A stretch of 64,000 nucleotides of DNA, taken from the NCBI RefSeq assembly GCF_900606115.1, contig NZ_UWPJ01000011.1, forward strand, positions 1 through 64,000. The letters are read 5' to 3'. The first letter of the stretch is position 1, and the number at the start of each line of letters is the position of its first letter. The stretch comes from Pigmentiphaga humi. GTDB taxonomy: Bacteria; Pseudomonadota; Gammaproteobacteria; Burkholderiales; Burkholderiaceae_B. This document shows positions 3,884 to 32,691 of the stretch, piece by piece. The notes under the pieces were generated by a model. The model saw nothing but the letters and a program-made list of their open reading frames with translations, had not been told where the DNA came from and searched no databases. Position numbers and translations under genes: made by a program.

Positions 3884-4756
3884 ATGGGACAGAAAATTCA
3901 CCCGACCGGGTTCCGTCTCTCGGTCAGCCGTAACTGGTCTTCGCGCTGGTACGCGGGCGGCAGCGCCTACGCCGGCATGTTGGCCGAGGACATCAAGGTC
4001 CGCGAATACCTGAAGAAGAAGCTGAAAGGTGCTTCCGTGGGCCGCGTGATCATCGAGCGTCCGGCCAAGAATGCCCGCGTCACGGTCTACTCGGCCCGTC
4101 CGGGCGTCGTGATCGGCAAGAAGGGCGAGGACATCGAAGTCCTGAAAGCCGACCTGCAGCGCCTGATGGGCGTGCCCGTGCACGTCAACATCGAAGAGAT
4201 CCGCAAGCCGGAAATCGACGCGCAGCTGATCGCCGACTCGATCTCGCAACAGCTCGAGAAGCGCATCATGTTCCGCCGCGCGATGAAGCGCGCCATGCAG
4301 AACGCGATGCGCCTGGGCGCCCAGGGCATCAAGATCATGAGCGCGGGCCGCCTGAACGGCATCGAAATTGCTCGTACCGAGTGGTATCGCGAAGGCCGTG
4401 TGCCGCTGCACACCCTGCGCGCCAACATCGACTACGGCACTTCCGAAGCCGGCACGACCTACGGCCTGATCGGTATCAAGGTCTGGGTCTACAAGGGCGA
4501 CACGCTGGGCTCGGCCGAACTGGCCGCCGCCCCGGAAGCAACCAAGGACGAAGAGCGCAAGCCGCGCCGCGGTCCGCGCAACGATCGTGGCGATCGCCCG
4601 GGCAATAACCGCCCCGGCGCCGGCCGTGGTCGTGGCGGCCGCCGTCCCGAAGGTGAAGCAGCTGCCGCTGCCGCGCCCGAGGGCGGTGCCCGGCGTGCGC
4701 CGCGCAAGCCGGCTGCTGATGCCGCCGCGCCTGCGCCTGCCAAAGACGGAGAATAA
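3884..4756 (+). CDS. rpsC: Small ribosomal subunit protein S3 with a long C-terminal tail
   Basis: The protein is 290 residues against about 233 in E. coli. The core is ordinary: [12 protein letters not shown] at the start, a KH domain with [17 protein letters not shown] near residue 75, and the [16 protein letters not shown] block. The extra ~60 C-terminal residues are low-complexity, rich in Arg-Gly and then Ala-Pro, and probably disordered. S3 forms part of the mRNA entry channel. Extended S3 tails are common in related bacteria. Confidence 0.97.
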
Positions 4757-4758
4757 GC

Positions 4759-5175
4759 ATGCTGCAGCCATCGCGCAGGAAATACCGCAAGGAACAGAAA
4801 GGCCGCAATACCGGCCTGGCGACGCGCGGCGCCAACGTTTCGTTCGGCGAATTCGGTCTGAAGGCCACCGGTCGTGGCCGCCTGACCGCTCGTCAGATCG
4901 AAGCGGCCCGTCGTGCCATCACCCGCCACATCAAGCGTGGCGGCCGTATCTGGATTCGCGTCTTCCCGGACAAGCCGATCTCGCAAAAGCCGGCCGAAGT
5001 CCGTATGGGTAACGGCAAGGGCAACCCGGAGTACTGGGTCGCCGAGATCCAGCCCGGCAAGGTGCTGTACGAAATGGAAGGCGTCAACGAAGAACTGGCG
5101 CGCGAGGCGTTCCGCCTGGCCGCTGCCAAGCTCCCGATCGCGACCGTCTTCGTGACGCGTCACCTCGGGACGTAA
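4759..5175 (+). CDS. rplP: Large ribosomal subunit protein L16
   Basis: The 138-residue product starts [17 protein letters not shown] and holds [20 protein letters not shown] and the [20 protein letters not shown] region that contacts the A-site tRNA. It begins 2 nt after rpsC and is followed by rpmC after 11 nt. Confidence 0.98.
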
Positions 5176-5186
5176 GGAGAATAGCA

Positions 5187-5378
5187 ATGAAGGCAAGCGA
5201 ACTCCGTTCGAAAGACGCTGGCGAGCTCGGTAAAGAGCTCGAGGGTCTGCTTAGGGCTCAGTTCAGTCTGCGCATGCAGCTGGCTACCCAGCAGCTTTCC
5301 AACAACAGCCAGCTCGGCAAGGTCCGCCGCGACATCGCGCGCGTCCGTACCGTGCTGCGCGAGAAAGCCGGGAAGTAA
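5187..5378 (+). CDS. rpmC: Large ribosomal subunit protein L29
   Basis: The 63-residue helical-hairpin protein has the usual start [18 protein letters not shown] and the conserved end [13 protein letters not shown]. It lies near the tunnel exit next to L23. AAGGAG before the ATG is a clear ribosome binding site. Confidence 0.97.
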
Positions 5379-5380
5379 AC

Positions 5381-5644
5381 ATGAGCGAAACCAAGCTGAA
5401 GCGTACGCTGACCGGCCGTGTGGTCAGCGACAAGATGGACAAGACGGTTACCGTGCTGGTCGAGCGCCGCGTGAAGCATCCGCTCTACGGCAAGATCGTC
5501 GTCCGGTCCGCCAAGTACCACGCTCACGACGAAACCAACCAGTACAACGCTGGCGACCTGGTCGAGATCGCGGAAACCCGTCCGGTTTCCAAGACCAAGG
5601 CCTGGGCCGTGGTTCGTCTGATCGAAGCCGCGCGCGTCATCTGA
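5381..5644 (+). CDS. rpsQ: Small ribosomal subunit protein S17
   Basis: The 87-residue OB-fold protein has [18 protein letters not shown], a signature of S17, and [12 protein letters not shown] near the end. It is the last gene of the S10 operon and is followed within 35 nt by an intrinsic terminator. As in E. coli, the operon stops here. What differs is that rplN starts 37 kb away. Confidence 0.98.
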
Positions 5645-5676
5645 TCGCGCTGTGAGGGCGCGCGCGCCCTCGCAAG

Positions 5677-5713
5677 AAAGCCGCCCCACCGCAAGGTGTC
5701 GGGCGGCTTTTTC
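5677..5713 (+). terminator. Rho-independent terminator of the S10 operon
   Basis: Arms AAAGCCGCCC and GGGCGGCTTT form a perfect 10-bp stem over a ~16-nt loop and run into TTTTT. A second GC-rich inverted repeat, GAGGGCGCG-CGCGCCCTC, lies just upstream at about 5654-5671. The placement after rpsQ marks the end of the operon and separates the island from ribosomal transcription. Confidence 0.88.
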
Positions 5714-5817
5714 ATTTCACGTCCAGCCGGGCTCGCCAGGTGCCGCGCCGCACATGGATGCCGGCGCCGATGGGGTATCGTGAAGGCATCGCTGCAAGCC
5801 GAAGCAACAGCCGAACC

Positions 5818-6411
5818 ATGTCGAGCCTCGAAGACCAATTCGCCCACATCCGCACCGGGCAGATGTATGACGACCTGACTCCGGAGCTGCTCGCAGCACG
5901 CGAACAGGCTGTATTGCTGACGAACGAATACAACGGATCTTTTTCGTCGCCGGCCATCGTGCGCGAGGCCATCCTCAAGCGTCTGCTCGGAACAGTCGGC
6001 TCGCGCGTGCATTTCGAGCCGACCTTTCGCTGCGAATTCGGCCGCAACATCCACATCGGCAACAACTTCTACGCCAACTTCGATTGCGTCATGCTCGATG
6101 GCGGCGGGATCTACATCGGCGACGACGTGCTGCTGGCTCCGCGCGTGGGCATCTACACGTCCAACCACGCAATCGACCCGGAAGAACGGGCGGCGGGTGG
6201 CTGTTTCGCCAAGCCGGTGAGGATAGGCGACAAGGTCTGGATAGGCGCGGGGGTCCACCTCAATCCCGGCGTGTCCATCGGCGACGGCGCCATCATCGGC
6301 TCAGGCAGTGTCGTGACCTCGGACATTCCGGCAGGCGTGGTGGCCGCAGGCGTGCCCTGCAGGGTGATTCGCGCCATCACGGAAAAAGACAAGACAGGAT
6401 TCCAGCCCTGA
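5818..6411 (+). CDS. maa: Maltose O-acetyltransferase-like hexapeptide acetyltransferase
   Basis: The 197-residue protein fits the Maa/LacA/NodL family. The N-terminal cap includes MYDDLTPELLAAREQA, and the left-handed beta-helix includes GNNFYANFDCVMLDGGGIYIGDD, given in part as NNFYANFDC and IYIGDDV. The catalytic His is likely in YTSNHAIDP, and a final turn reads GSGSVVTSDIPAGVVAAGVP. The family moves acetyl from acetyl-CoA to a sugar hydroxyl. ATG 5818 was chosen because it gives the family N-terminus; earlier starts add unrelated residues. It stands alone between the S10 terminator and a convergent gene. Confidence 0.85.
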   Translation: MSSLEDQFAHIRTGQMYDDLTPELLAAREQAVLLTNEYNGSFSSPAIVREAILKRLLGTVGSRVHFEPTFRCEFGRNIHIGNNFYANFDCVMLDGGGIYIGDDVLLAPRVGIYTSNHAIDPEERAAGGCFAKPVRIGDKVWIGAGVHLNPGVSIGDGAIIGSGSVVTSDIPAGVVAAGVPCRVIRAITEKDKTGFQP

Positions 6412-8473: not shown

Positions 8474-9463
8474 ATGACGACCGCGGGTAGCGCTCCGTTC
8501 AACCAACTTGTCAGGCAGGCGATCGACTGGGCCGTGCTGCTGCAATCCGACCGCGCCGACGACGGCGCGCGGCACGCCTGTCGATGCTGGCGCGACAGCG
8601 ACCCCGACCGCGAACGGGCCTGGCAGCGCGTGCAGCAGGTGCTCGCCGCCGTGCGCCAGGACATCGGCCTGCTGCCGTCGGCCGGCGCAGCGCATGCTGT
8701 CCTGCGCGCTTCTGCCGAGCGGGCCGGGCGCCGCAAGGCGCTCAAGCTCCTGACCGCATCGCTGGCCACCGCGCTGTCGGCCGGCTGGCTGGCGGAACGG
8801 CATCTGCCGTGGCAGCGGCTGGCGGCCGACCATTACACCGGCGTCGGCGAACGCAAGACGGTGCTGCTGGCCGACGGCACCCGCCTGGTGCTGAATACCG
8901 ACAGCGCCGTGTCGGTGCGTTTCGACGCCGCGCAGCGCCTGATCGTGCTGACTCGCGGCGAGGCGGCCCTGGCCAGCGGCGCCGATTCACGCTCGCCGCG
9001 CCATCGGCCCCTGAAGGTACAGACCCGTCATGGCCTGTTCGAGGCATTGGGCACGCGCTTCATAGTGCGGCTGGAGCCGGCATCGAGCATGCTGACGGTG
9101 GAAGAGGGCGCCGTCGCGATCTACCCGCGCGACGCGCGCGGCGCGCCCGTCATCGCCCGCGCCGGCATGGCCTACCGGACCGACGGCGCGGCCGCGGTGC
9201 CGGCCGACACACGCGGCCTGGACTCCGCCAGCTGGGTCCATGGCGCGCTGTCGGTGCGCAACATGCGCCTGGCCGACTTCCTGGCCGAAGTGGCGCGCTA
9301 CCGCGCCGGGCGGGTCGACTGCGACGAGGCTGTCGGCGAACTCCGGCTCTCGGGCGTCTATCGGCTCGACGACTCGGACGAGCTGCTCGCCATGCTGCCC
9401 GACATCCTTCCCGTCCAGGTGCGGTACCGGACGCGCTACTGGGTCCACGTCGGCGCGCGTTGA
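8474..9463 (+). CDS. FecR-type sigma regulator (system 1)
   Basis: The 329-residue protein has an N-terminal cytoplasmic part with a DUF4880-like region (AIDWAVLLQSD...ACRCWRDSDPDRERAWQRV). A membrane segment lies near residues 95-110 (KALKLLTASLATALSAGWLA), followed by the FecR periplasmic domain with VGERKTVLLADGTRLVLNTD. It relays a signal from the receptor plug domain to the FecI-type sigma. The C-terminal GVYRLDDSDELLAMLPDILPV region fits a secretin/TonB-like (STN) interaction fold. Confidence 0.9.
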   Translation: MTTAGSAPFNQLVRQAIDWAVLLQSDRADDGARHACRCWRDSDPDRERAWQRVQQVLAAVRQDIGLLPSAGAAHAVLRASAERAGRRKALKLLTASLATALSAGWLAERHLPWQRLAADHYTGVGERKTVLLADGTRLVLNTDSAVSVRFDAAQRLIVLTRGEAALASGADSRSPRHRPLKVQTRHGLFEALGTRFIVRLEPASSMLTVEEGAVAIYPRDARGAPVIARAGMAYRTDGAAAVPADTRGLDSASWVHGALSVRNMRLADFLAEVARYRAGRVDCDEAVGELRLSGVYRLDDSDELLAMLPDILPVQVRYRTRYWVHVGAR

Positions 9464-9543
9464 TTTTGTTGCGCCGGGCTGTCGGGTTTCGGGCGCCCGT
9501 TCGGCTTTAGGAGAACAGAGCATCTCCTGCGACGAGCCATCCC

Positions 9544-12162
9544 ATGCCCTATCCTCCCGTACCGTCTCATTTCCGCAGCGGCCGATCCAACCCGCGGTCG
9601 CGCGGCCTGCCTTGGACCGCCGCCGCCACTGCCGCGCTGCTGGGCGTCCATCCCGGCGTCATGGCCCAGGCGCCGGCGCCAGCCGGCGTACGCGCCTACC
9701 TGGTCGCGCCCGGGCCGCTGGACGAGGTGTTGAACGGCTTCGCCCGCCAGGCCGGCATCTCGCTGTCGTTCACGCCGCAGCAGGTGGCCGGGCGCAGCAG
9801 CCCGGGGCTGGCGGGCGAGTTCAGCGTCGATGCGGCGCTGGCGCGCCTGCTGGAAGGCAGCGGCCATAGCGCCGTGGCGCAGGCGCCCGGCCGTTATCGA
9901 CTGCAGGCCGCGGCGGCCGGTTCGGCGGCCGTAGCCGCCGCACCGCCGGCGGGCGACGCGGAGGTGGCCACGCTGCCTACCGTAGTGGTGACGGCCGCCG
10001 CCGATACCGGCATCGCCGACGCCTCCAACACCATCGTCATCAGCCGCGAAAGCCTGGACCGCTTCCCGCCCACCAGCCCGGGCGACATCTTCCGCGACAT
10101 CGCCGGCGTCATGGTCGCAAACAATCGCAACGGTCCGTCGCTGGACCTGAACATCCGCGGCATGCAGGGCTTCGGGCGGGTCAAGGTGCTGGTGGACGGC
10201 ACCGAATCATCCAGCTCCAGCTACAAGGGCTACGGTGGCGAAAGCACGCGCGCCTTCATCGATCCCGAACTGCTGGGCGAGGTCAAGATCGAGAAAGGGC
10301 CCAACGCCGGTCCCTACGGCGCCGGCGTGGTCGGCGGCGTGGTGAGCGCTTCGACCTTGACGGCGGCCGACCTCATCAAGGACGGCAAAAGCTACGGCCT
10401 GCGCCTGCGCGGCACGCTGGCCAACAACCAGGCCGGCACCGACAGCTACCAAGTGTTCGGCCCGGGGCCCAGCGGCTCGGCGTCGGCCCAGCCGGGCACC
10501 GACGCAGGCTTCCGCGAGATCACGCTGCCCGGCCGGACCTGGACGGGCAGCATCGTCGGCGCCTGGCGCCCCAACGACATGCTCGACCTGGTCGCCGGCT
10601 TGAGCCGCCGCCGCGCCGGCAACTACGTCTCGGGCAGCCGGGGCGATGTGACCGGCCGCTTCGCGCCCGCCGAGGCGCCGCGGCGGCTGTCGTACTACCA
10701 GCCCGGATCCGAGGTCTACAACACCTCGCAGGACACCGACTCGGTGCTGCTGAAGGCGGGCCTGAAACTGCCCGCCGACCAGCGGCTCGACCTCGGCTTC
10801 AGCCGGCTGGAGAGCCTGTTCGGCGAGGCGCGCAGCGCCGGCTATCCCGAATACATCGAACAGCTCAATCTCAGCAGCGCCGACAAGAAGCTGTACACGG
10901 CCCGCTATGCGTGGTCGCCGGTCGGCAACCCGTGGATCGACCTGCGCGCCAACGTGTGGGCCGCCGACTCCGAGGAATACCAGGCCGCCGACATCCGCGG
11001 GATCGCCATGATCTCCGGCATCCATCGCGCCCAGCACGCCAACACGCGCGGCCGCGGCGTAGAAGTGTGGAACACCAGCGTGCTGGACCTGTGGGGCGTG
11101 GGGCTGAGCCTGAAGTACGGCGCAACCTGGCTGTACGAGAAGGCCCGAATCGCGCCGCTGGACGGCGGCATCTACATGGAGCCCAACGGTCAGCGCCGGA
11201 TGAGTTCGGAATTCGTGCAGGCCGAGGTGATGCCGATCGACAGCGTGACGCTCAACGCCGGCGTGCGCCGCGAGCGCTACGAGATGCGGGGCGCGGGCGA
11301 GGTCTCGTCGGGAATACCGGGGCAAGTGCTGCCGCTGAACATCCGCCATGGCGAGAGCCGGACCAATCCGAGTCTGGGGGCCACCTGGCAGATCATGCGG
11401 GCGGTGCAGCTGTTCGGCCGCTACGGCGAAGGCTGGCGTCCGCCTTCGACCAAGGAGACGATCAACGGCCTGATCGCCGACTCGAACGTGGGCCGGGCTC
11501 TGCTCAGGCCCGAATTCATCCGCAGCACCGAGGCCGGTGCGAGGCTGACGCTGCGCGACCAGTGGCTGCGCAACGACCAGTTGGCCGCGTCGCTCACGTT
11601 CTTCCGCAACAAGACGACCGATTACGTGCAGGGCTTCGCCGGCGAGTTCCGCAACGCCGACAGCGCCGATTTCCGCGGCCTGGAGTTCAACCTGAACTAC
11701 GACGGCGGCGTGGTCTTCGCGCGCTATGCCTTCACCCGCTACTCCAAGATCGAATTCTGCGGCGTGGCGCTGGCGTTCAATACGGCGCCGCCGTGCTTCA
11801 AGATGCCGTACGAAGACTATGCCTCGGGCTGGGACCTGTCGATGAGCGGGCTGTACGTGCCGCCCAAGGCCCAGCACAGCCTGACGGTCGGCGCCCGCCT
11901 GCTGGAGCGCCGGCTGACGCTGGGCGCGCGCGCGATCCTGGCGCGCGACAACGCCGCCGGCGGCGACGTGGTGTCCAGCGGCTGGCGTTCCTATACGGTC
12001 TACGACCTGTTCGCGGGCTACCGGATCAACGACCGGCTGAACGTCAACCTCAGCGTCGAGAACCTGACCGACCGCTTCTACATGGACGCCGGCACCAGCT
12101 CCATGCTGGCCATACCGTCGCCCGGCCGCACCGCCAAGCTCACGCTCACGTACTCTCTTTGA
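9544..12162 (+). CDS. TonB-dependent HasR/HemR-like transducer receptor (system 1)
   Basis: The 872-residue outer-membrane receptor has a signal peptide ending near VMAQA and a secretin/TonB N-terminal (STN) signalling domain at about residues 50-115. A TonB box-like LPTVVVTAA follows near 140, then the plug (DIFRDIAGVMVANN, LNIRGMQGFGRVKVLVDG) and a beta-barrel ending LAIPSPGRTAKLTLTYSL. Plug and barrel features resemble heme/hemoprotein receptors of the HasR-HemR group. Ligand identity is inference. It lies downstream of fecI- and fecR-type genes and 8 nt before the next gene, so it belongs to one operon. Confidence 0.85.
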   Translation: MPYPPVPSHFRSGRSNPRSRGLPWTAAATAALLGVHPGVMAQAPAPAGVRAYLVAPGPLDEVLNGFARQAGISLSFTPQQVAGRSSPGLAGEFSVDAALARLLEGSGHSAVAQAPGRYRLQAAAAGSAAVAAAPPAGDAEVATLPTVVVTAAADTGIADASNTIVISRESLDRFPPTSPGDIFRDIAGVMVANNRNGPSLDLNIRGMQGFGRVKVLVDGTESSSSSYKGYGGESTRAFIDPELLGEVKIEKGPNAGPYGAGVVGGVVSASTLTAADLIKDGKSYGLRLRGTLANNQAGTDSYQVFGPGPSGSASAQPGTDAGFREITLPGRTWTGSIVGAWRPNDMLDLVAGLSRRRAGNYVSGSRGDVTGRFAPAEAPRRLSYYQPGSEVYNTSQDTDSVLLKAGLKLPADQRLDLGFSRLESLFGEARSAGYPEYIEQLNLSSADKKLYTARYAWSPVGNPWIDLRANVWAADSEEYQAADIRGIAMISGIHRAQHANTRGRGVEVWNTSVLDLWGVGLSLKYGATWLYEKARIAPLDGGIYMEPNGQRRMSSEFVQAEVMPIDSVTLNAGVRRERYEMRGAGEVSSGIPGQVLPLNIRHGESRTNPSLGATWQIMRAVQLFGRYGEGWRPPSTKETINGLIADSNVGRALLRPEFIRSTEAGARLTLRDQWLRNDQLAASLTFFRNKTTDYVQGFAGEFRNADSADFRGLEFNLNYDGGVVFARYAFTRYSKIEFCGVALAFNTAPPCFKMPYEDYASGWDLSMSGLYVPPKAQHSLTVGARLLERRLTLGARAILARDNAAGGDVVSSGWRSYTVYDLFAGYRINDRLNVNLSVENLTDRFYMDAGTSSMLAIPSPGRTAKLTLTYSL

Positions 12163-21949: not shown

Positions 21950-21970
21950 TGAAATAAGAATCATTATCAT
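21950..21970. promoter_or_regulatory. Fur-like box before signalling operon 2
   Basis: TGAAATAAGAATCATTATC at 21950-21968 matches 14 of 19 Fur-box positions, with the right half perfect. TATCAT at 21965-21970 could be the -10 of the rightward promoter; the -35 is poor. It lies between the divergent methyltransferase and fecI-type genes. Confidence 0.65.
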
Positions 21971-22033: not shown

Positions 22034-22510
22034 ATGACGATCGAAACCATGTATCGGAGCCACGGCTCGTGGCTGCTGGCCCGTTTGCAGCGCAAGCTCG
22101 GCAACAGCTGGGACGCTGCCGACCTGGTCCAGAATACCTTTCTGAAGGTGCTGACGTCATTCGACGTCGCGGCGATCGCCGAGCCGCGCGCCGTGCTGAC
22201 GACAGTGGCGCGCACCCTCTGGATCGATCAGCTGCGGCGCCAGGCGCTGGAACGCGCGTATCTGGAGGCCTTGGCCCGGCAGCCCGAGAACCTGGTGCCG
22301 CCGCCCGAAGTGCGGCTCATCGCCATCGAGGCGCTGGTCGAAATCGACCGCATGCTCGACGGCGTGCCCTTGCAGGCCAAGCAGGCTTTCCTGATGGCGC
22401 GCATCGAAGGCATGTCGCTGGGAGAAATCGCGGCGGCGCTCGGAATCTCGCTGGCCACCGTGAAGCGGCGCATCGCTCAGGCCGCCGTGCGCTGCTACTT
22501 CGGATACTGA
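22034..22510 (+). CDS. FecI-type ECF sigma factor (system 2)
   Basis: The 158-residue protein has sigma region 2 (SHGSWLLARLQRKLGNSWDA, DLVQNTFLKVL) and region 4 (QAFLMARIEGMSLGEIAAAL, ATVKRRIAQA). It shares long blocks with the system-1 sigma, such as ERAYLEALA, so the two are paralogues. ATG 22034 is chosen because it gives the family N-terminus; an in-frame ATG at 21992 is possible. It is expected to drive the downstream receptor genes when the receptor is occupied. Confidence 0.87.
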   Translation: MTIETMYRSHGSWLLARLQRKLGNSWDAADLVQNTFLKVLTSFDVAAIAEPRAVLTTVARTLWIDQLRRQALERAYLEALARQPENLVPPPEVRLIAIEALVEIDRMLDGVPLQAKQAFLMARIEGMSLGEIAAALGISLATVKRRIAQAAVRCYFGY

Positions 22511-22512
22511 CC

Positions 22513-23505
22513 ATGCCGCCCGTCACGCTTGCCGCGCCCGACGCCGTCGATGTGCCCGAAACCGTGGCCCGCCAGGCAGTGCAGTGGCTGATCGAGTTGC
22601 AGACGAAGCCGCTGGACGAGGGGCGGATGCAGGCATGGATGCGTTGGCGCCACGCATCGGCCGTCCACGAGCGGGCCTGGCTGCGTATCGAAGAGATCGA
22701 CGATCGCCTGCGCCAGGTGGGATCGGCGGCGGTCGCCATCGAGGCCGTCGGCGGTGCCGAGCGCAGCCGCCGGCGCACGCTCAAGCTGCTGGCGGCGGGC
22801 GTGGCCGGCCTGGGCGGAACGATCGTGCTGCTGCCGCGCGCCGCGCCGTTCCAGGCGTGGATGGCTAATCACGCGACCCCGGTCGGCGAGCGCCGCACGG
22901 TGCGGCTGGAAGACGGCACCCGCGTGGCGCTGAATACCGATAGCGCGCTCAATGTGCGCTATGGCGCGCAGCGGCGGGTGCTCGAGCTGCTGCGTGGCGA
23001 AATCCTGGTCGAGACCGGCGGCGATCCGGCGGGGCGGCCGTTTCTCGTGCGGACCGCGCAAGGCGATGCGCGGGCGCTCGGCACGCGCTTTACGGTGCGC
23101 CAGTACGACGCAAGCACCCGCGTGTCCGTCTGGGAAGGCCTGGTGGCGCTGGAGCCGCGCCGCGGCGCCGGGCCGGGCCTGCGCCTGCGCGCCGGCGAGC
23201 AGGGCGCCTACACTTCCACCTCGGCCCAGGGGCCGGAAGCGTCGGACCCTTACGCCGATTCATGGGCGCGCGGCTATCTGACGGCCGACCATACGCCCTT
23301 GGCGGTGTTCCTGGCCGAAGTCGCCCGCTATCGGCAAGGCTGGGTGCAATGCGATCCGGCGGTAGCCCACCTGCCCGTCTCCGGCACGTTTCCGCTCGAC
23401 GATCCCGACCGCATTCTTGCGTCGCTTCCGCATGCGCTGCCCGTGGAAGTGCGCAGACGCACGCGCTACTGGGTACGCGTCGAAGCGCGTTCTCCCGCCG
23501 CCTGA
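22513..23505 (+). CDS. FecR-type sigma regulator (system 2)
   Basis: The 330-residue protein has the DUF4880-like cytoplasmic part (VARQAVQWLIELQTKPLDEG). A membrane segment follows (LKLLAAGVAGLGGTIVLL, near residue 100), then the FecR domain with VGERRTVRLEDGTRVALNTD and the C-terminal SGTFPLDDPDRILASLPHAL. It starts 2 nt after the sigma gene. It should transmit receptor occupancy across the inner membrane to the paired sigma factor. Confidence 0.9.
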   Translation: MPPVTLAAPDAVDVPETVARQAVQWLIELQTKPLDEGRMQAWMRWRHASAVHERAWLRIEEIDDRLRQVGSAAVAIEAVGGAERSRRRTLKLLAAGVAGLGGTIVLLPRAAPFQAWMANHATPVGERRTVRLEDGTRVALNTDSALNVRYGAQRRVLELLRGEILVETGGDPAGRPFLVRTAQGDARALGTRFTVRQYDASTRVSVWEGLVALEPRRGAGPGLRLRAGEQGAYTSTSAQGPEASDPYADSWARGYLTADHTPLAVFLAEVARYRQGWVQCDPAVAHLPVSGTFPLDDPDRILASLPHALPVEVRRRTRYWVRVEARSPAA

Positions 23506-23628
23506 ACCCGGGCTCCGCGACGGGCGTGGCCCGCTCGCGCGACGCCGGTGAGCCGATTTTCGGCCGAGTTCGTCAATGGATATGTAAGCCGCGAAATCGA
23601 CGCGGCCGAACCGGGACTCAGCCACTTC

Positions 23629-26415
23629 ATGTCTTTCCGCTTTCCGATGCCCAGCCGCCGCGGGGTTGGCGTTGCCGCGCTCGCCGCGGCGCTGGCCGCG
23701 CTGGCATGGACGCCGCTCGACTCGCGCGCGCAGGCGCAAGCCAGCGCCCCCGCCGTGCGCCACTACCAGATCGAGCCTGGAGACCTCACGCGCGTCCTCA
23801 AGGATTTCGGCATCGCGAGCGACCTGCTGATCAGCTTCGACTCGCATCTGGCCGATGGCCGCCAGAGCGCCGGACTCCGGGGCGAGTACGCGCTGCCGGA
23901 CGCCTGGCGGGCGGTGCTGGCCGGCACCGGCCTGGAGGCCCTGCCGTCCGGCGAGCGCAGCTATACCCTGCGCGTCGCGCCCGCGACGGTGCAGCCCGGC
24001 ATGCTGGGCACGGTCACGGTGGTAGGGCTGCAAGAGCGCGACGAGAAAGAGGAGGTCTACAAAACCGCCGGCTCGCGCAGCGTCCTCACCCGCGACGACA
24101 TCGAGCGCAACCGCGGCATGTCGGTGGGCGACATCTTCCGCGGCGTGCCCGGCGTACTGGTCGGCGAGCTGCGCAACAGCGGCGGGCTGGACATCAACAT
24201 CCGCGGCATGCAGGGGCAGGGCCGGGTGCCCATCCTGGTCGACGGCGCGCGCCAGGAAACCACGGTGTACCGGGGCTATTCCGGCGTGGTGTCGCGCAGC
24301 TACATCGACCCCGACCTGATCGGCGGCATCACCATCGACAAGGGTCCGACCCTGTCGGCCCAGGGCACCGGCGCCACCGGTGGCCTGGTCAGCATGCGCA
24401 CCATCAAGGCCGAAGACATCGTCCGGCCCGGCCAGGACTTCGGCATACGCGTGCGCGGCCAGGCCATCGGCAACAACACCGGCTCGCCCATGGCGCCGGA
24501 CACGCCTACCGGCCTGTTCACCGGCGTCGGCGAAACCTTCAATTCGGCCCCGGTCTACCGCACCGACTGCGCCACCGCCGGCGCATGCGCCGGCAAGTAT
24601 GCGCTGCCCGACGAGTGGGGCAACCCGGAAGGGCTGGACCGCCCCGGTACCTTCCAGCCCAAAAGCTATGCCGGCAGCGTAGCCATCGCCAAGCGCTGGG
24701 AAAAATTCGACCTGGTGGCCGCCTACGCGCAGCGCGAGCAGGGCAACTACTACGCAGGCGAACACGGGCCCGCGGGCTGGGTGGATGTGTCGAACCGGCG
24801 CAAGCTGCCTTTCTACACGGAGGTCCGCCCCGAGATCAAAGGCGCTTCCGTATTCCGGGCCGGCGAGCGCATACCCGGCACCAACTACGAAAGCAAGTCG
24901 GCGCTGCTCAAGGGTACGGCCTACCTGGCCGACGACCAGGAACTGGAACTCGCCTACCTGCGCTACAGCAGCGTGTACAGCGAGATCATGCCCTCGCAGA
25001 TCATCCGCTTCGCCAATCTCTCGCCGGTCCTGCAGCCGCGCAATAGCGACGTCACGGTCAACACCTACACCAGCCGCTACCACTGGAAACCCGCCGGCCA
25101 GCCGCTGCTGGACCTGCGCGCCGACCTGTGGCACACCCGCACCAACGCCACCAACAACAGCCCCAGCGAGACCCAGCCTTCCCTCTACAACAACGTGCGC
25201 GAAAAATACAAGCGCTGGGGGCTGACCCTGGAGAACACCTCCACCCTGCAGCACGGCGACTGGGGCGAGAGCCAGGTGCGCGTCGGCATGGCCGCGCAAT
25301 GGGAAAGCGTCGGCACCACTGCGCTGAACGACGGCGACTCCCGTTCCGCCGGGCGCAGCGGCGACCGCGATGAATACAGCGCGTTCGCCGCCTGGCTCTA
25401 CAAGCCCATCGAAACCGTGGCCCTGGACGTCGGCCTGCGCCATACGCGCTTCAAGTCCAGCGACGACAAGGACATCGTCGTCAGCAATCCGGACAGCCCC
25501 AACTGCGTCGACCGCGACGGCGACGGCGTCTGCGATCCCATCCCCAACCGGAACAAGCAAAGCGGCACCGCCCCCGTGCTCAGCCTGAGCTGGGAGCCGG
25601 GTAAGCGCGGCCTGCAGTTCTACGGGCGCTACGCCGAGGCCTACCGCATGCCTAGCCTGTTCGAGAGCACCTCGGGTTTCTCGTTCGATGCTGCGCCGGA
25701 CGTCGCCCTGAAGCCCGAGCACGCCAGGAACAGGGAAATCGGCATCAACTACGCGAAGGACGGCATCCTGGCCGGCCGCGACCGCCTGCGCCTGAAGCTC
25801 GCCTATTTCCGCAACCACATCACGGACTACCTGACGCGCACGTCGCCCAACCTGTGGGAGGAGGGCGGGTCAGGCGGCGAGCTGGCCCAGTCGTCGAGCT
25901 TCACCATGCGCAACATCGACAGCGCCACCTTCCACGGGCTGGAGCTATCGGGCGGATACGACCTGGGCGTGGTGTTCACCGAGTTCGGCTTCACCAAATA
26001 CAACAAGATCGAAATCTGCCACACCGGCAGTTACCGCGTGAACCGTTGCAACGACTACGGCATCGCCGGCAGCTACATCAACAACATGGTGCCGCCCAAG
26101 TGGCACGGCAGCGTCACGCTCGGCGCGCGCCTGATGGACTACCGGCTGGTGCTGGGCGTGCGCGCCACCCTGATGGGCCAGCGCACCAACGCGCCGCAAT
26201 ACAACAACGACACCGCGCGCGGTTTCCTCGCTGTCGTGCCGTGGCACTCCTACCGCGTATTCGACCTGTTCGCCAGCTACCGCGTGAACGATCGCGTCAG
26301 CATCGATTTCAACCTCGACAACTTCACCGACCGCTACTACATCGACGCGCTCAGCCTCGGGCTGATCCCCGCTCCCGGCCGCACCGCACGGCTGAGCGTC
26401 ACCTTGCGGTACTGA
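23629..26415 (+). CDS. TonB-dependent HasR/HphR-like transducer receptor (system 2)
   Basis: The 928-residue protein has a signal peptide ending near SRAQAQ and an STN signalling domain (VRHYQIEPGDLTRVLKDFGI). The plug reads DIFRGVPGVLVGEL and INIRGMQGQGRVPILVDGAR. The barrel has a FRAP/NPNL-like region (YRMPSLFE, LKPEHARNREIGINY) and ends LIPAPGRTARLSVTLRY. These fit heme/hemophore receptors. An extracellular-loop insert at 25499-25540 encodes NCVDRDGDGVCDP, a calcium-site-like motif between two cysteines. ATG 23629 gives a normal signal peptide; an upstream in-frame start at 23548 is less likely. Confidence 0.87.
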   Translation: MSFRFPMPSRRGVGVAALAAALAALAWTPLDSRAQAQASAPAVRHYQIEPGDLTRVLKDFGIASDLLISFDSHLADGRQSAGLRGEYALPDAWRAVLAGTGLEALPSGERSYTLRVAPATVQPGMLGTVTVVGLQERDEKEEVYKTAGSRSVLTRDDIERNRGMSVGDIFRGVPGVLVGELRNSGGLDINIRGMQGQGRVPILVDGARQETTVYRGYSGVVSRSYIDPDLIGGITIDKGPTLSAQGTGATGGLVSMRTIKAEDIVRPGQDFGIRVRGQAIGNNTGSPMAPDTPTGLFTGVGETFNSAPVYRTDCATAGACAGKYALPDEWGNPEGLDRPGTFQPKSYAGSVAIAKRWEKFDLVAAYAQREQGNYYAGEHGPAGWVDVSNRRKLPFYTEVRPEIKGASVFRAGERIPGTNYESKSALLKGTAYLADDQELELAYLRYSSVYSEIMPSQIIRFANLSPVLQPRNSDVTVNTYTSRYHWKPAGQPLLDLRADLWHTRTNATNNSPSETQPSLYNNVREKYKRWGLTLENTSTLQHGDWGESQVRVGMAAQWESVGTTALNDGDSRSAGRSGDRDEYSAFAAWLYKPIETVALDVGLRHTRFKSSDDKDIVVSNPDSPNCVDRDGDGVCDPIPNRNKQSGTAPVLSLSWEPGKRGLQFYGRYAEAYRMPSLFESTSGFSFDAAPDVALKPEHARNREIGINYAKDGILAGRDRLRLKLAYFRNHITDYLTRTSPNLWEEGGSGGELAQSSSFTMRNIDSATFHGLELSGGYDLGVVFTEFGFTKYNKIEICHTGSYRVNRCNDYGIAGSYINNMVPPKWHGSVTLGARLMDYRLVLGVRATLMGQRTNAPQYNNDTARGFLAVVPWHSYRVFDLFASYRVNDRVSIDFNLDNFTDRYYIDALSLGLIPAPGRTARLSVTLRY

Positions 26416-26463
26416 TTTCGCAGCCACCTCCTGAACGACATCGACAAGCAAAGGACACTCGAC

Positions 26464-28995
26464 ATGACACAGATATTGCGCAACCTCGCGGCGGGGCTGG
26501 CTAGCGCCGCCGTGCTGCTGCTGGCCGCGTGCGGCGGCGGAGGCGACGGCGGTGGCGGCGGCAACACAGCCACCCCGCCCACCGCCGTCGCCACGGCCGC
26601 CCCGGCCAGCGCGCCCATCGGCACCGTCGTCACGCTCGACGCCAGCGCCAGCACCACGCCCAATGGCGGCACGCTGAGCTACGAGTGGACGCTATCGGCC
26701 AAACCGGAAGGCAGCGCCGCCGCGCTTTCCAGCGCCACGGCCGCCAAGCCGACCCTGACCGTCGACCTGCCCGGAGAATACGTGGCCGACCTGATCGTCA
26801 AGGACGGCGCGGCCAGCGCCAGCGCGCGCGTCACGGTCACCGCGACCAACCCCGACCCGGTGGCGGTGGTCGTGCCTCTGGAGCAGACCGTGCTGCAAGG
26901 CGAGACGGTCACGCTGGACGGCAGCAAGAGCCTGCCGCCCACGGGCGGCGCGGCCAGCGAGCTGCGCTACCAGTGGAACTTGATCGACCAGCCCGATGGC
27001 GATCTGACCACCCCCTTGGACAACGCCGCCAGCGCTCAGGCCAGCTTCCTGGCCGAACGGGTCGGCGTCTACCGCGCCACGCTGGTCGTGCGCCACGGCG
27101 ACAAGGTCAGCGCCCCGGTCGAGGTCAAGATCACCGTCAATACCGGCAACAGCTATCCGGTCATCTCCATCGTCGAGCCGGAAGGGGCCACGCACAACGC
27201 CAGCGGCCACCTGCTGTTCAACGCTACCTTGCGCAAGACGATCGTGCTCGACGGCAGCGGCACCAAGGACCCGGACGGCGATGTCCTGAGCTACCGCTGG
27301 CGCTTCGCGCTCGACGTGCCCACGCCCAAGCCCGACGGCAGCGAGGCCGTGATCAGCGGCACCAGCAGCGCCAAGGCCGAATTCACGCCCGACATCGTGG
27401 GCAAGTATTACCTCGATTTCCTCGCCTACGATGGCCACGCCTCGACTACCCAGCGTGTCGTCATCACCGTCGCCAAGGCCGCTGGCGATACGGTCAATAC
27501 CGCACCCGGGGCGACGATAGGTTTCGCCACCACCACCGATCAATGCGAGCTGGGCGGCAGCGGCACCTGGTGGCCCTATTGCACCGTCTACGCCTACGCC
27601 TACGATGCGGAAGGCGATCCGCTGACCTACAACTGGACTTACTGGAAGGCAGGCTCGGAAGACCGCCAGACCAGCGCCGACGCGTCCTTGAAGCTGGATG
27701 GCAACGACGCGGGCGACTGGCGCGTGGAGCTGGTCGTCAACGACGGCAAGCTCGACAGCGCGGTGGCAGCCAAGACCTTGACCATCAAGATTGCCGCCAA
27801 CCGCGCCCCCGTCGCCAAGGTCGCGCTGGACGTGGCCAAGGTGGAAAAGGGCGGCACCCTCGTCTTCGACGGCAGCGGCAGCACCGACGCGGACGGCGAC
27901 CAGATGTTCTACACCTGGACCCTGGTGGATCGCCCCGACGGCAGCGCCGCCGTGGTGGACGGAAAAGAGAGCGATCCCATAGCCAGGGTGACGACCGACA
28001 AGGCTGGCGTTTACACGGTGCACCTGCAAGTGAAGGATGCCCGGGGCGGGTATAGCCCGGCGACCGACACTACGGCCAGCGCCAGCGGCTTCGCCAAGGT
28101 GAGCAACCATGCGCCGGTGTTGTCGGAGCTGCGTCTGGAAGGGGGGACGACGACCGTCGCGGGGAGATTGAACAGCAACATCACGCCGGGCCAGGCCGTG
28201 GTCGTGAATGATGATGGGCTTCATAATTTCAGCCTTCATCTCTATCCCATCGTCCTCGATCCGGACCAGGATACGCCCCTCTACTACGACATTTCGGTGA
28301 CGCAGCCCCAGGGGAGCACGATCAAACCGGTGTCTTGCACGATTCCGGTCACGACTGCGAACCGATGCAGCTTCGTCAGCACGCCGAATCCATTCGTGCC
28401 GGGCGACTATGCCTTCGAGGCCATCGCCAGCGACGGTCTGGCCTACTCCGAGACCAAGCGCCTGGAGATCAGCGCCGTCAGCCGCCAGAACTACCCCACG
28501 CTGCTGCTGGAGCAGAACCCGAAAGGAGATCCTGCTGCCGGTACATCGGCAACGCAGAAGTTCTTCCCCTTTACGGCCGTTCCGGCTTCGACATTGGATG
28601 GCAGTTCTTGGACATACACGCTGAATAGCCTCGGGGATTCTGGCAGGAGCGACGATTACCAGGCGATTTACCAACTGACGGCTTTCGATCGCGACTACAC
28701 CATCGTCGACCTCGCCACGTCGGCGGTAGACGGCTACCAGCCCAGCTTCGTCGGCCTGCAGAACAATCAGGTGATACGCAAGGGCGAGTCGGTGCTGTTC
28801 TACCTGAGGCGCCCGCGCATCCCCAACGAAGCGCAGCTCTATGCCGAGGCGCTGGAGAAGTACCCCAACCTCGGCAGCATCCCGAAGGCAGAGCGCGAGA
28901 GCCTGCACAACCTCATCGCGACCTACCAGTTCAAGTGGTCTTTCCGCGTGTCGGAAAAGGACGGCTACACCTTCCACGTGGGACCGCTCAATTGA
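26464..28995 (+). CDS. PKD-domain lipoprotein of the Slam-linked locus
   Basis: The 843-residue protein has a lipobox LAAC with Cys23, followed by a Gly-rich linker. Several PKD-like Ig domains follow, recognisable from repeats of LDGS/FDGSGS...DPDGD...YRWRF or YTWTLVDRPDGS and later V..VTV strands. The last ~250 residues have no domain I recognise. It starts 48 nt after the receptor and precedes two hairpins. Cargo binding at the surface is inference; because Slam proteins can move lipoproteins to the surface, it may be a second substrate of the nearby Slam. Confidence 0.78.
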   Translation: MTQILRNLAAGLASAAVLLLAACGGGGDGGGGGNTATPPTAVATAAPASAPIGTVVTLDASASTTPNGGTLSYEWTLSAKPEGSAAALSSATAAKPTLTVDLPGEYVADLIVKDGAASASARVTVTATNPDPVAVVVPLEQTVLQGETVTLDGSKSLPPTGGAASELRYQWNLIDQPDGDLTTPLDNAASAQASFLAERVGVYRATLVVRHGDKVSAPVEVKITVNTGNSYPVISIVEPEGATHNASGHLLFNATLRKTIVLDGSGTKDPDGDVLSYRWRFALDVPTPKPDGSEAVISGTSSAKAEFTPDIVGKYYLDFLAYDGHASTTQRVVITVAKAAGDTVNTAPGATIGFATTTDQCELGGSGTWWPYCTVYAYAYDAEGDPLTYNWTYWKAGSEDRQTSADASLKLDGNDAGDWRVELVVNDGKLDSAVAAKTLTIKIAANRAPVAKVALDVAKVEKGGTLVFDGSGSTDADGDQMFYTWTLVDRPDGSAAVVDGKESDPIARVTTDKAGVYTVHLQVKDARGGYSPATDTTASASGFAKVSNHAPVLSELRLEGGTTTVAGRLNSNITPGQAVVVNDDGLHNFSLHLYPIVLDPDQDTPLYYDISVTQPQGSTIKPVSCTIPVTTANRCSFVSTPNPFVPGDYAFEAIASDGLAYSETKRLEISAVSRQNYPTLLLEQNPKGDPAAGTSATQKFFPFTAVPASTLDGSSWTYTLNSLGDSGRSDDYQAIYQLTAFDRDYTIVDLATSAVDGYQPSFVGLQNNQVIRKGESVLFYLRRPRIPNEAQLYAEALEKYPNLGSIPKAERESLHNLIATYQFKWSFRVSEKDGYTFHVGPLN

Positions 28996-29001
28996 GCGCC
29001 G

Positions 29002-29037
29002 GCGGCCGGGTCGATCGACGGCCACCCGGCCGCTTTT
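29002..29037 (+). terminator. Terminator-like hairpin after the PKD lipoprotein gene
   Basis: GCGGCCGGGT and ACCCGGCCGC form a perfect 10-bp stem over a 12-nt loop, followed by TTTT. It lies 6 nt after the stop codon. A second stem, GGGCGCCGC/GCGGCGCCC, follows at 29041-29072 without a T-run. Partial termination here would set different transcript levels for the receptor genes and the hemophilin-like gene. Confidence 0.6.
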
Positions 29038-29195
29038 CCCGGGCGCCGCTGTGCTTGCGCGCGGCGGCGCCCGTCCAGGCCAAGGAGGCGAGGGCACACC
29101 ATGCATGAGGCTGCCTGTCAGCGACATCCCCGCCCTGGGCGGGACATGTCGGTAAACCGTGTGCCCAGGTGCACACATATTGAGGAATCACGATC

Positions 29196-30086
29196 ATGAA
29201 ACACACAGTGATTGCATTGGCCATACTCGCCGCCTCCGGCGCCGCGCAAGCTCAGACCGTCAGCGGTTCCGTCAATACGGGCAGCCAGCTCGTCGTGGTG
29301 GGCGGGGCGACCATCGGCGGCTTTCATGGTCCGCTGGGCGCGCCGGGCATCGGCGCCTACGACGGCGACAACGACCCGACCAATGACCAGCTCATCAGCC
29401 TGCAGAGCATCGAGCCGTTCACCCGCCAGACCACCCTGGACGTTGTCGAAGGCGGCCTGACCTTCGCCTACTACCAGCTGCCGTCCGGCTTCGCGCATCC
29501 CCCGGTGCCGGGGGGCGGCACGCCGCCTGCCACCACGGTCGACATGAACGGCGTGAAGGTCCCGAACCTGACCAAGAACGTCTACTTCGGCATGGCGAGC
29601 TCGGGTACCGCCGGGGTGGGCACCGTCGAGCACGAGGCATGGTTCGTGGGCGATACGACGGGCCGCGTCCTGCCTGCCGCCGCCACCAACTACGCTACCG
29701 TGGCGTTGCTGGGGCTGACCGGAGCAACGACCAACGACGGCACCTCGTTGGATGTCCTGCAAGGCACGCTGAGCCTGGGGACGCCCACCGGAGGAGCGGC
29801 CTCGACCGCTTCGTTGACGGGGACTTTGAGCAAGTCGGCCACCAGCCAGTATCTCGACATCAATGCCGTTGCCACGCTCAGCGGCGCGGGCGCGGGCACC
29901 TTCGCCGGCAACGCCACGTACTACGTGACCACTCCGGTGGCCGCCAACGGCACCACCAGCGGCCAGTTCTTCGGCAATGCCAGCTCTACGACTCCCGGCA
30001 CCGACGGCAGCGCGCTGGCCGGCGTCGCGAGCGGCAGCTATCTCGGCACCGACTATGTCGCCTCCTTCGGCGGCCGCGCCAACTGA
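29196..30086 (+). CDS. Secreted hemophilin-like Slam substrate
   Basis: The 296-residue protein has a clear signal peptide (MKHTVIALAILAASGAAQA) and no lipobox, so it should be soluble. Its C-terminal third has the small beta-barrel pattern of Slam cargo: GQFFGNAS, then GSALAGVASGSYLG and DYVASFGG, like the GxFFG...A...AGxxxG block of hemophilin and TbpB-type barrels. Taken with the adjacent Slam gene and the STN receptor, a heme- or metal-carrying secreted protein is likely. The ligand is unproven. TTGAGGAATCACG upstream gives a GAGG binding site. Confidence 0.72.
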   Translation: MKHTVIALAILAASGAAQAQTVSGSVNTGSQLVVVGGATIGGFHGPLGAPGIGAYDGDNDPTNDQLISLQSIEPFTRQTTLDVVEGGLTFAYYQLPSGFAHPPVPGGGTPPATTVDMNGVKVPNLTKNVYFGMASSGTAGVGTVEHEAWFVGDTTGRVLPAAATNYATVALLGLTGATTNDGTSLDVLQGTLSLGTPTGGAASTASLTGTLSKSATSQYLDINAVATLSGAGAGTFAGNATYYVTTPVAANGTTSGQFFGNASSTTPGTDGSALAGVASGSYLGTDYVASFGGRAN

Positions 30087-30157
30087 GCGGGCGGGGCCTT
30101 TCTGACCGCCGCTTGAAAAGAGACTGCCTTTCGCCATGGTGAACCGCTTCAGTCTCT

Positions 30158-30185
30158 CCCGTATCCGCCCATGGGCGGATACGGG
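30158..30185 (+). promoter_or_regulatory. Perfect 28-nt palindrome between cargo and Slam genes
   Basis: CCCGTATCCGCC pairs completely with GGCGGATACGGG across a CATG centre. It lies 40 nt before the Slam ATG, in the 138-nt gap after the hemophilin-like gene. There is no T-run, so RNA processing, stabilisation of the upstream message, or attenuation is more likely than full termination. Confidence 0.7.
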
Positions 30186-30224
30186 TTGTTCGGCTTGCCT
30201 CGACTCGACCTGCATCCCGCTTTC

Positions 30225-31685
30225 ATGACATCCCGGTTCCAACGCCTACTACGCAGCGCCGCGTTGCTGTTCTTCCTGTGCTCCGCCAGCGCCTGGGCGC
30301 AACAAGACACGGCCGACCGCCTGTGGCAGGGCGCCGAGCGGCAGGCGCAGCAACTCCGCCGCCAGAGCGACCCGCTACAGGGTGCGGGCCGGGGCAACTG
30401 GCTGGAGGAATCCATGCTGTCGGCCTGGCAGACGCCCCAGACCCGCCTGCACCAGCTGCTTCTGTCCATCATGCAGGCCGTCAATGCGCGCGACTGGTTC
30501 GGCGCGGACCGGCTGCTGCGCCAGTACGCCCAGGTGCCCGGGCGCGACCCGGCCCTGTTCACTTTCGTCGAGGCCGCCCGCCTGGCCGCCGAAGGCGATT
30601 ACGACGCCGCCATTGCCGGCTATCGCCAGGTATTGCAGGCCAATCCCAAGTTCATACGCGGCAACCTGGACCTGGCGCGGGCGATGATGGCCGACAGCCG
30701 CCTGCGCGATGCGCGCGAAATCTTCCAGCAGATGCAGGCGCGGCCGCTGCCGGCCGAAGTGGAACGCTACATCGCCGATGCCATGACGGCCATCGAGCAG
30801 CGCGGCCGTCTGCGCCTCACTTTGTCAGTGGCGGCGGTGCGCGACGACAATTTGGCCAATACCTCGCGGGTGGTCGATCCGTGCGCGCTGGTGTTCTACG
30901 GCACATGCCTGCAGAACGTGCCCGGCAGCAAGACCGCCGACAGCGGCGCCTATTTCGAGGCCAGCCTCAACAAGCTCTGGCCGCTGGCCGGCCACCACGG
31001 CGTGCTGCTGCGCAGCCTCAACTACGGCAATCACTACCGCCACGAGAGCAATTTCGACAACCTCGTTTCCACCACCTACCTGGGCTACCAGTACAGCACC
31101 GCGCGCGGCCATTTCCAGTTCCTGCCCTTGTTCGAACTCGATCTGGAAGGCGGCCGCGAGGCCTACCGGGCCGTGGGTTTTCGCACCAGCTTGAATCGGC
31201 AGCTGAACCCGCGCGCCATGATCGAAGCCAGCTACGAGTACAAGCACCGCGACTTCACCGAGCGGCTGCAAGGCCTGGAGGGCGATTTCCGCAGCGCCAT
31301 GCTGTACGGCCAGTACGCGGTCCGGCCCGATCTGTTGCTGTACGGCGTCCTGACCTGGCGCGAAAGCGACGCCGGCTTCGGTCTCTTCGGCTATCGCGAG
31401 CAGATCGCGCGCCTGGGCATCGTCAAATCGTTCAATCAGAAGGTGACGGTCAACGCGGCCTACAGCTACCGCCGCAGGCAGGCCCAGGAGGACTACGCCA
31501 TTTTCGGCAGGCGTCAGCGCGACCACGAGAACGGCCTCTATCTGAGCGTCTCGCTGCCGGGCTACGCCTGGGCAGGCTTCACGCCCACCATGAGCTACGA
31601 GTACCGCAACAACCGGAGCAGCATCCCGCATCTCTACACCTACGAAAGAAACCGCTTCACCCTGGGCTTCACCAAAGTTTTCTGA
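30225..31685 (+). CDS. Slam-family outer-membrane translocator (DUF560)
   Basis: The 486-residue protein has a signal peptide ending ASAWAQ, an N-terminal helical TPR region (about 60-190, with RLAAEGDYDAAIAGYRQVLQ) and a C-terminal beta-barrel of about 290 residues. The barrel ends in TLGFTKVF with a terminal Phe. This arrangement is that of surface lipoprotein assembly modulators, which move lipoproteins or soluble hemophilins across the outer membrane. The neighbouring gene encodes a matching cargo. ATG 30225 gives the signal peptide; an earlier in-frame ATG overlaps the palindrome. Confidence 0.85.
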   Translation: MTSRFQRLLRSAALLFFLCSASAWAQQDTADRLWQGAERQAQQLRRQSDPLQGAGRGNWLEESMLSAWQTPQTRLHQLLLSIMQAVNARDWFGADRLLRQYAQVPGRDPALFTFVEAARLAAEGDYDAAIAGYRQVLQANPKFIRGNLDLARAMMADSRLRDAREIFQQMQARPLPAEVERYIADAMTAIEQRGRLRLTLSVAAVRDDNLANTSRVVDPCALVFYGTCLQNVPGSKTADSGAYFEASLNKLWPLAGHHGVLLRSLNYGNHYRHESNFDNLVSTTYLGYQYSTARGHFQFLPLFELDLEGGREAYRAVGFRTSLNRQLNPRAMIEASYEYKHRDFTERLQGLEGDFRSAMLYGQYAVRPDLLLYGVLTWRESDAGFGLFGYREQIARLGIVKSFNQKVTVNAAYSYRRRQAQEDYAIFGRRQRDHENGLYLSVSLPGYAWAGFTPTMSYEYRNNRSSIPHLYTYERNRFTLGFTKVF

Positions 31686-31710
31686 GGACTTCTTCAACGG
31701 AACCCGCACC

Positions 31711-32691
31711 ATGAAAGTCAACTTACGATCCTTGCTGTTCCCATGTCTGTTGCCCGCCCTGCTGGGCGGCTGCCTGTCGACTTCCCACATCCGCGCCGTG
31801 CCGGACGACCAGCGCCCGCACGTCATCAGCCACGCCGAGGGCCTGGAGCGCGATCGGCAAGCCATCCTGGCGATGGTGGGCGACTACCGCGTCAGCTTCA
31901 ATTTCGAGGAAGGCGATCCTGCGCCCGGCTACGAGCCCAAGCGGCGCTATCGCAGCGGCGCCTACGAGATGGTGCTGGTGGCCGAAGACACGGGTGACCG
32001 CATCGTGCTGCAGCACCTACTGGTCCACCGCACCGCCGGTTTCGTGGTCAAGCACTGGCGCCAGGATTGGCAATACCAGGCGCCGACGCGGCTGGAGTTC
32101 ACCGAGGACCAGACCTGGCGCCTGCGTTCCATCGACCCGGCCGTCACCAAGGGCGCCTGGACCCAATGCGTCTACGAGGTCAGCGACGCGCCGCGCTATT
32201 GCGGCACGGGCAAATGGACCTACGACAACGACACCCCCACCTGGACCTCGGACGCCGGCTGGCGGCCGCTGCCGCGGCGCGAGTACACCAAGCGCAGCGA
32301 CTACAACGCGCTCGGCATCGTCAATGTCCAGCGCATCACGCCCGAAGGATGGATGCACGAGCAAGTCAACCGCAAGGTGGTGCGCGACGGCGAGCGCGAA
32401 GTCTCCACGCTGGTGAAGGAAACCGGCGCCAACGACTACCGTCGCATCACGGGATTCAACTTCAGTTCCGGCTACCGCTATTGGGAGAACACGGCCGACT
32501 ACTGGCGCCGCATCCGCGAAGAGTGGAAACTGCGCATCGCCGAGGGCCAGGGTGTGCATCTGAACTACCCGGTCGATGGCATGAAAATGATCCTGAGCAT
32601 GTACGTCCAGTCACAGCAGGCGAACAATGGCGTCGCGATCAGCGAGGCGGACATCCGCGAGCTGTTCGATCCGTGGGTGTCGGCGCCGTAG
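31711..32691 (+). CDS. DUF6607-family lipoprotein
   Basis: The 326-residue protein has a lipobox LLGGC with Cys21 and the DUF6607 pattern of aromatic-rich segments, such as HRTAGFVVKHWRQDWQYQAP, YCGTGKWTYDNDTPTWTSDA and REYTKRSDYNAL. The family is often seen near TonB receptor genes but has no defined activity that I know of. It follows the Slam gene after 25 nt and appears to close the locus. Confidence 0.75.
   Translation: MKVNLRSLLFPCLLPALLGGCLSTSHIRAVPDDQRPHVISHAEGLERDRQAILAMVGDYRVSFNFEEGDPAPGYEPKRRYRSGAYEMVLVAEDTGDRIVLQHLLVHRTAGFVVKHWRQDWQYQAPTRLEFTEDQTWRLRSIDPAVTKGAWTQCVYEVSDAPRYCGTGKWTYDNDTPTWTSDAGWRPLPRREYTKRSDYNALGIVNVQRITPEGWMHEQVNRKVVRDGEREVSTLVKETGANDYRRITGFNFSSGYRYWENTADYWRRIREEWKLRIAEGQGVHLNYPVDGMKMILSMYVQSQQANNGVAISEADIRELFDPWVSAP

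Follow-up and report, generated by a model that had tools for sequence, protein, structure and literature searches.

Which substrate does the signal-controlled secretion and uptake locus at positions 22034-32691 of a Pigmentiphaga humi contig serve, and do all seven of its genes take part? We analyzed it within the 64,000-nucleotide stretch formed by positions 1 to 64,000 of contig NZ_UWPJ01000011.1 (hereafter the window). Very probably, the locus serves heme acquisition as a hemophilin/Slam-type operon that stands under cell-surface signalling and is extended by two components, a lipoprotein with PKD repeats and a lipoprotein of family DUF6607. Its genes and sites are the following.

21950-21968, + strand: Fur-like box matching the palindromic consensus at 14/19 positions, 84 bases before the ATG at 22034
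22034-22510, + strand: FecI-type extracytoplasmic function (ECF) sigma factor (Sigma70_r4_2, 3.5e-14); its open reading frame (ORF) is open from 21992
22513-23505, + strand: FecR-type anti-sigma factor (DUF4880 and FecR; FecR, 1e-23)
23548-26415, + strand: TonB-dependent receptor of the heme/hemoglobin family (TIGR01785) with an N-terminal STN-like domain; the likelier start is the ATG at 23629
26464-28995, + strand: PKD-repeat lipoprotein with four K319L-like PKD stretches; lipobox LAAC, read from the sequence
29196-30086, + strand: hemophilin-like secreted haemophore of 296 residues (the cargo); Sec-type signal and no lipobox, read from the sequence
29325-29327 and 29496-29498: codons of His44 and His101, candidate heme ligands of the cargo
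30225-31685, + strand: Slam, the outer-membrane protein of type 11 secretion, 486 residues, with TPR_Slam and a SlipAM barrel; ORF open from 30171
31711-32691, + strand: DUF6607 lipoprotein, assigned to the RhuH-type haemophore family; lipobox LGGC, read from the sequence
32053-32055: codon of DUF6607 His115, which aligns with the RhuH heme ligand His96

All seven ORFs are open and run in the same direction, and six of the seven proteins matched their named families singly (Pfam, NCBIfam), the cargo being the exception. This confirmed the gene arrangement first described in a sequence-only reading of the window. The same seven-gene order, sought in other genomes, was present in G166, G179 and G190, and not in G199. 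The receptor scored 353 bits with TIGR01785 (TonB-hemin; curated cut-off, 316.85), which bears out a receptor of the heme type; the two paralogous receptors of the window's genome and three others tested also exceeded the heme-family cut-off.

Since searches of Pfam and NCBIfam with the cargo sequence alone gave no match at E 0.1, we identified the protein via its family profile and predicted fold. The predicted model has the hemophilin fold, with an N-terminal clamp and a C-terminal 8-stranded barrel; profile and model together bear out the soluble, barrel-bearing hemophilin-type cargo that had been proposed. The heme ligands of HphA are His43, in a loop, and His106. All nine members of the cargo family have a His in or beside the Gly-Pro loop, and His101 is invariant in 9/9, yet it does not align with HphA His106. 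The 486-residue protein is indeed a Slam, as had been read: SlipAM (PF04575) matched at 1.9e-43 over positions 5-288 of 288 and TPR_Slam (PF24575) at 8.1e-17. Its gene adjoins that of the hemophilin-type, C-terminal-barrel cargo, and it is the single Slam found in the window's genome. By analogy with HphA and HsmA, the cargo would bind heme and be released in a Slam-dependent manner.

A search for Slam-family loci returned nine, eight of them related over most of their length or up to a contig edge and one over 30 residues; the closest came from the genus sample, one from Pigmentiphaga kullae and the others from two Burkholderiales without further classification. Locus L059 (2542-10660, genome G811) has an ECF-FecR-receptor set and two tandem hemophilin-like cargos before one Slam. 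On another contig of the same genome, DUF6607 neighbours a receptor of the hemoglobin type.

How is the operon controlled? The sigma and anti-sigma genes hold up by the family matches given above and adjoin the receptor gene, and an STN-like signalling domain occupies approximately residues 72-152 of the receptor. The Fur-like box upstream of the sigma gene stood as well. Sites were scored out of 19 against a palindromic consensus; sites of at least 14/19 are expected 0.125 times per window of like composition (one-strand first-order simulation, 40 runs), and one other window site reached this score, at 7887 (14 on the + strand, 15 on the - strand). Similar boxes lie at approximately -55 of the sigma gene in two congeners, L067 (P. 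kullae; 14/19) and L066 (metagenome-assembled genome 67-32; 13/19), and no box of at least 12/19 was found upstream of the sigma genes of the more distant L070, L073 and L059. G199 has a truncated FecR gene and lacks a detectable ECF gene.

Between the window and the L066 congener (3610-6378), the receptor STN domain is 28% identical and the plug and barrel 84%. The sigma factor and FecR are 42% identical to those of the congener. Either a joint replacement of the signalling parts or their fast drift may lie behind this.

Is such control new for a hemophilin locus? The sequence-only reading knew of no hemophilin system with an ECF/anti-sigma pair plus a large PKD lipoprotein; as regards the pair, this is contradicted by the hemO cluster of Acinetobacter baumannii, described in the order ECF sigma factor, anti-sigma factor, hphR, hphA and hsmA (Slam) (PMC10483418). 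The pair is therefore already in print for a hemophilin/Slam locus. The hemO cluster shares with the window operon the five-gene core and its order, with a hemophilin haemophore, a Slam and a heme-uptake receptor (PMC10483418, PMC8560813). It differs in having TonB-related and heme oxygenase genes in place, both missing from the window operon (PMC10483418, PMC8560813), and, as listed, in having neither a PKD lipoprotein nor DUF6607 (PMC10483418). Of the earlier overall interpretation, the Slam, the hemophilin-type cargo, the heme signalling receptor, the ECF/FecR pair and the Fur-like box thus remained, and the uniqueness of the ECF pair did not.

The has operon of Serratia marcescens (hasI, hasS, hasR, hasA, hasDEB; PMC9249621) is unrelated but is built on the same logic: an ECF/anti-sigma pair, a signalling receptor, and a haemophore with its exporter are encoded in one operon with Fur sites. 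HasA exits via HasD and HasE in the cytoplasmic membrane (PMC9249621), whereas the window operon pairs a hemophilin with a Slam as the exporter next to it. No HasA chain was found among the 8 matches of the cargo search up to E 10; by profile and fold, the cargo is a hemophilin and not the HasA that marks a Has-type system.

By analogy with HphA/HsmA/HphR, FecIRA and Has, the operon could work as follows. Iron shortage would lift Fur off the sigma gene, as the box suggests. The cargo, made with a Sec signal, would cross the outer membrane through its Slam, as expected from its family, take heme from heme proteins outside the cell and hand it to the receptor. Heme at the receptor would then signal through the STN domain to FecR, so that the sigma factor is freed and transcription rises. 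The PKD repeats may form a stalk, with the C-terminal region facing the receptor or the ligand, and the lipoprotein-tethered DUF6607 could hold heme on one or the other face of the outer membrane. Finally, an inner-membrane importer would take heme into the cell, where it would be opened by a heme oxygenase whose gene is not part of the operon. In the window's genome, this gene lies on another contig, next to one for a periplasmic binding protein of family PF01497. Induction of the operon by ligand-loaded cargo was a guess of the initial reading; in the Has system, heme on the receptor together with the hemophore, even a non-heme-binding one, gives the induction signal (PMC9249621).

What could DUF6607 contribute? 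The protein matched PF20311 at 9.9e-67, a family that Pfam still labels unknown. With a five-member DUF6607 profile, we found PDB entry 8xjc, RhuH of Riemerella anatipestifer, at 3.9e-61, the match covering residues 22-270 of the 298-residue chain; no other entry scored below 0.5. In RhuH, the heme ligand is His96, and Arg143, Tyr144, Arg170, Arg183 and Gln198 lie at the propionates (PMC11967795); by hand count, all six letters fall at their published positions along the printed alignment. The window protein, which is homologous to RhuH, keeps five of the six, namely the axial His (His115) and four of the five further heme contacts (Arg162, Tyr163, Arg190 and Gln218), with Ile203 in place of Arg183. 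As judged by profile and conserved residues, DUF6607 is the RhuH haemophore family, a point missed by the initial reading, and the protein would give the operon another heme-binding component, structurally unrelated to the first.

RhuH homologues were published as mainly from Weeksellaceae and Flavobacteriaceae (PMC11967795), whereas the window protein is a proteobacterial lipoprotein in a hemophilin operon. The words lipoprotein and DUF are absent from the main text of the RhuH paper (PMC11967795), and the name DUF6607 was not met in the literature searched. As far as our searches reach, a RhuH-family protein in a hemophilin operon is new; the operon would therefore hold two unrelated haemophore types.

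DUF6607 was present in 11 of the 369 genomes of a class sample and in 8 of the 300 genomes of an order sample, the window's own genome included in both. At five of the ten non-own class loci, a TonB receptor is a same-strand neighbour; four of these receptors exceeded the cut-off of the hemoglobin receptor family (323.75) with 448.1, 447.6, 443.1 and 430.5 bits, and the fifth fell below it. At a sixth locus the receptor lies on the other strand, approximately 2 kb away. In one order-sample locus, a cytochrome b561 gene adjoins DUF6607.

On which side of the outer membrane would the protein act? Rather than a haemophore, DUF6607 may well be a periplasmic lipoprotein of the outer membrane that receives heme from the receptor and buffers or chaperones it; the hemophilin would then be the sole extracellular haemophore. 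Between the window species and its congeners, DUF6607 is the best conserved of the seven proteins, at 85-87% identity; the PKD lipoprotein reaches 56% and the cargo 44-46%. Such conservation would suit a protein that is not exposed outside, and DUF6607 has a lipobox. Furthermore, DUF6607 follows the Slam in four of eight named loci (L066, L067, L068 and L071); in three others (L069, L072 and L073), which lack DUF6607, a gene for heme oxygenase, which works inside the cell, stands directly 3' of the Slam instead, and L070 has neither in place. Against a purely periplasmic role, RhuH is reported to occur in outer-membrane vesicles and to acquire heme from hemoglobin (PMC11967795). Tentatively, we also propose a three-part heme relay, in which the Slam-secreted hemophilin and a tethered RhuH-type haemophore would feed one signalling receptor, and the PKD lipoprotein would be a general, so far undescribed co-receptor for this clade of receptors that also serves modules without a secreted haemophore. 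If this relay exists, DUF6607 would be a heme-binding family in Proteobacteria too. The tie to a solved haemophore gives DUF6607 a testable function in this phylum.

With which partner does the PKD lipoprotein belong? Four of its stretches match the KIAA0319-like PKD model, and its PDB matches at 1e-5 were PKD-bearing proteins (KIAA0319-like, collagenase ColH) and one cellulose-binding protein. A family profile was built from its C-terminal region (28090-28992). The PKD gene follows the receptor gene in all seven named receptor-holding loci (L066-L068 and L070-L073). Receptors of the same clade (E up to 1e-100) numbered 18 in nine genomes, and a match to the PKD C-terminal region lies on the same strand 1.7-2.3 kb downstream of each of the 18; nine of them are rows of model A7, picked from loci in which PKD had already been seen, so that the independent count is 9/9, and four of these nine (G000 C22, G905, G911 and G912) possibly represent one module common to close relatives. 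There were 22 PKD matches, of which four are unlinked: two lie elsewhere, a third stands in tandem with another match and the fourth is at the edge of a contig. In the class sample, the C-terminal region matched 7/369 genomes, two besides the own genome below 1e-10. One of these two matches sits in a sigma-FecR-receptor-PKD set; for the other, the 18 kb fetched contained nothing that matched the receptor. The PKD lipoprotein belongs with the receptor and not with the Slam branch, which the initial reading had missed. It would be a partner of the receptor at the outer membrane, most likely a surface co-receptor.

Its lipobox and its place next to the Slam would also suit a surface lipoprotein delivered by the operon's Slam, and Slams do deliver surface lipoproteins (PMC5449769, PMC9090332). 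It is nevertheless unlikely that this Slam exports the PKD lipoprotein as a cargo: nine of the 18 receptor-PKD modules come with cargo and Slam, whereas the other nine have a match to neither downstream within the stretch fetched; the window's genome has three such modules (C15, C22 and C41) versus one Slam; and the low-confidence model of the C-terminal region has an immunoglobulin/PKD-like first half, with no hemophilin or TbpB entry among the 50 listed structural matches.

Two published cases resemble the receptor partner that we propose. BtuH2 of Bacteroides is a lipoprotein of a vitamin B12 transport locus with PKD repeats on its N-terminal side and a separate C-terminal domain, by which it binds vitamin B12 (PMC8941943); phylum and ligand differ, and it is a parallel rather than a shown relative. 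In Kerstersia gyiorum, fecI, fecR, fecA and a PKD gene stand together twice in the genome (PMC6461280, Table 6). These sets are listed there by annotation under iron uptake only, with no Slam or cargo named in the rows examined and no comment met on them (PMC6461280). Of what our searches found in print, this table comes nearest. Within the literature that our searches reached, a PKD lipoprotein as the constant partner of a heme receptor clade is new and can now be named as such.

Other arrangements of the module were also seen. In Corticibacter populi (L086, 1-4932, with L073, 14571-21421), a sigma-FecR-receptor-PKD set lacks cargo and Slam, and the next gene after it is that of heme oxygenase. 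Alcanivorax sp. 24 has a heme-uptake island of approximately 50 kb (L087, L123, L124, L071 and L129; contig approximately 265-313 kb) in which DUF6607 and heme oxygenase are joined by four modules of receptor and PKD gene and by two complete sets of cargo and Slam.

Could the PKD and DUF6607 genes be mere passengers in an ordinary hemO-type cluster, without part in heme uptake? The cluster listed for A. baumannii lacks both (PMC10483418), DUF6607 is absent from four of the eight named loci, and L059 and L061, two more distant receptor-cargo-Slam loci, gave no PKD match. We consider this improbable, however, since PKD is kept with the receptor clade in 18/18 modules, cargo and DUF6607 co-occur in the same five of 11 genus genomes (G000, G166, G179, G190 and G199), and DUF6607 recurs elsewhere beside hemoglobin-type receptors.

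Several observations, among them the lack of a PKD match at L059 and L061, weigh against the extended heme operon that we favour. Neither TonB nor heme oxygenase is encoded among its seven genes. The STN match of the receptor (PF07660, positions 2-50 of 52) reached 27.6 bits versus a cut-off of 28.4, and the stretch around cargo His101 has a predicted local distance difference test score below 50, which makes the second heme ligand uncertain. L068 is without a sigma gene, in L071 sigma and FecR are divergent from the receptor, and L069 is cut before the receptor. Furthermore, the receptor model gave no hit at four of the ten class DUF6607 loci, nor at any of the eight fetched non-own order-sample loci. 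Because a same-strand receptor was detected at 5/10 and 0/8 loci, respectively, the link between DUF6607 and heme receptors is frequent, not constant.

Uptake of a metal or another tetrapyrrole is very unlikely: heme is indicated by the receptor, by the cargo and by DUF6607, and in three relatives the next gene downstream encodes heme oxygenase. Of the ligand first given as heme or metal, heme was retained and metal was not. In a published survey, heme oxygenase stood beside 137 of 1,111 cluster 1 proteins of this secretion family (PMC12282271). It is encoded in all nine genomes with the locus. The genus Pigmentiphaga is known from soil and pollutant degradation, and the operon would bring hemophilin/Slam piracy to a genus whose heme source is not obvious.

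The heme locus lies within a 37.5-kb insert that splits the S10-spc ribosomal operon (genes named from translations) between rpsQ and rplN (window 5645-43184). Within this insert, a FecR-like gene is once more paired with a large receptor-like one (8474-12162, as judged by their translations), with the Fur-like site at 7887 (14-15/19) and no PKD C-terminal match beside the pair. Among the 11 genus genomes, the gap from rplP to rplN measures 38.0 kb here, 8.4-14.8 kb in seven and 0.9-1.0 kb in two, and in one the two genes are on two contigs; with a gap so variable, the junction looks like an insertion hot spot.

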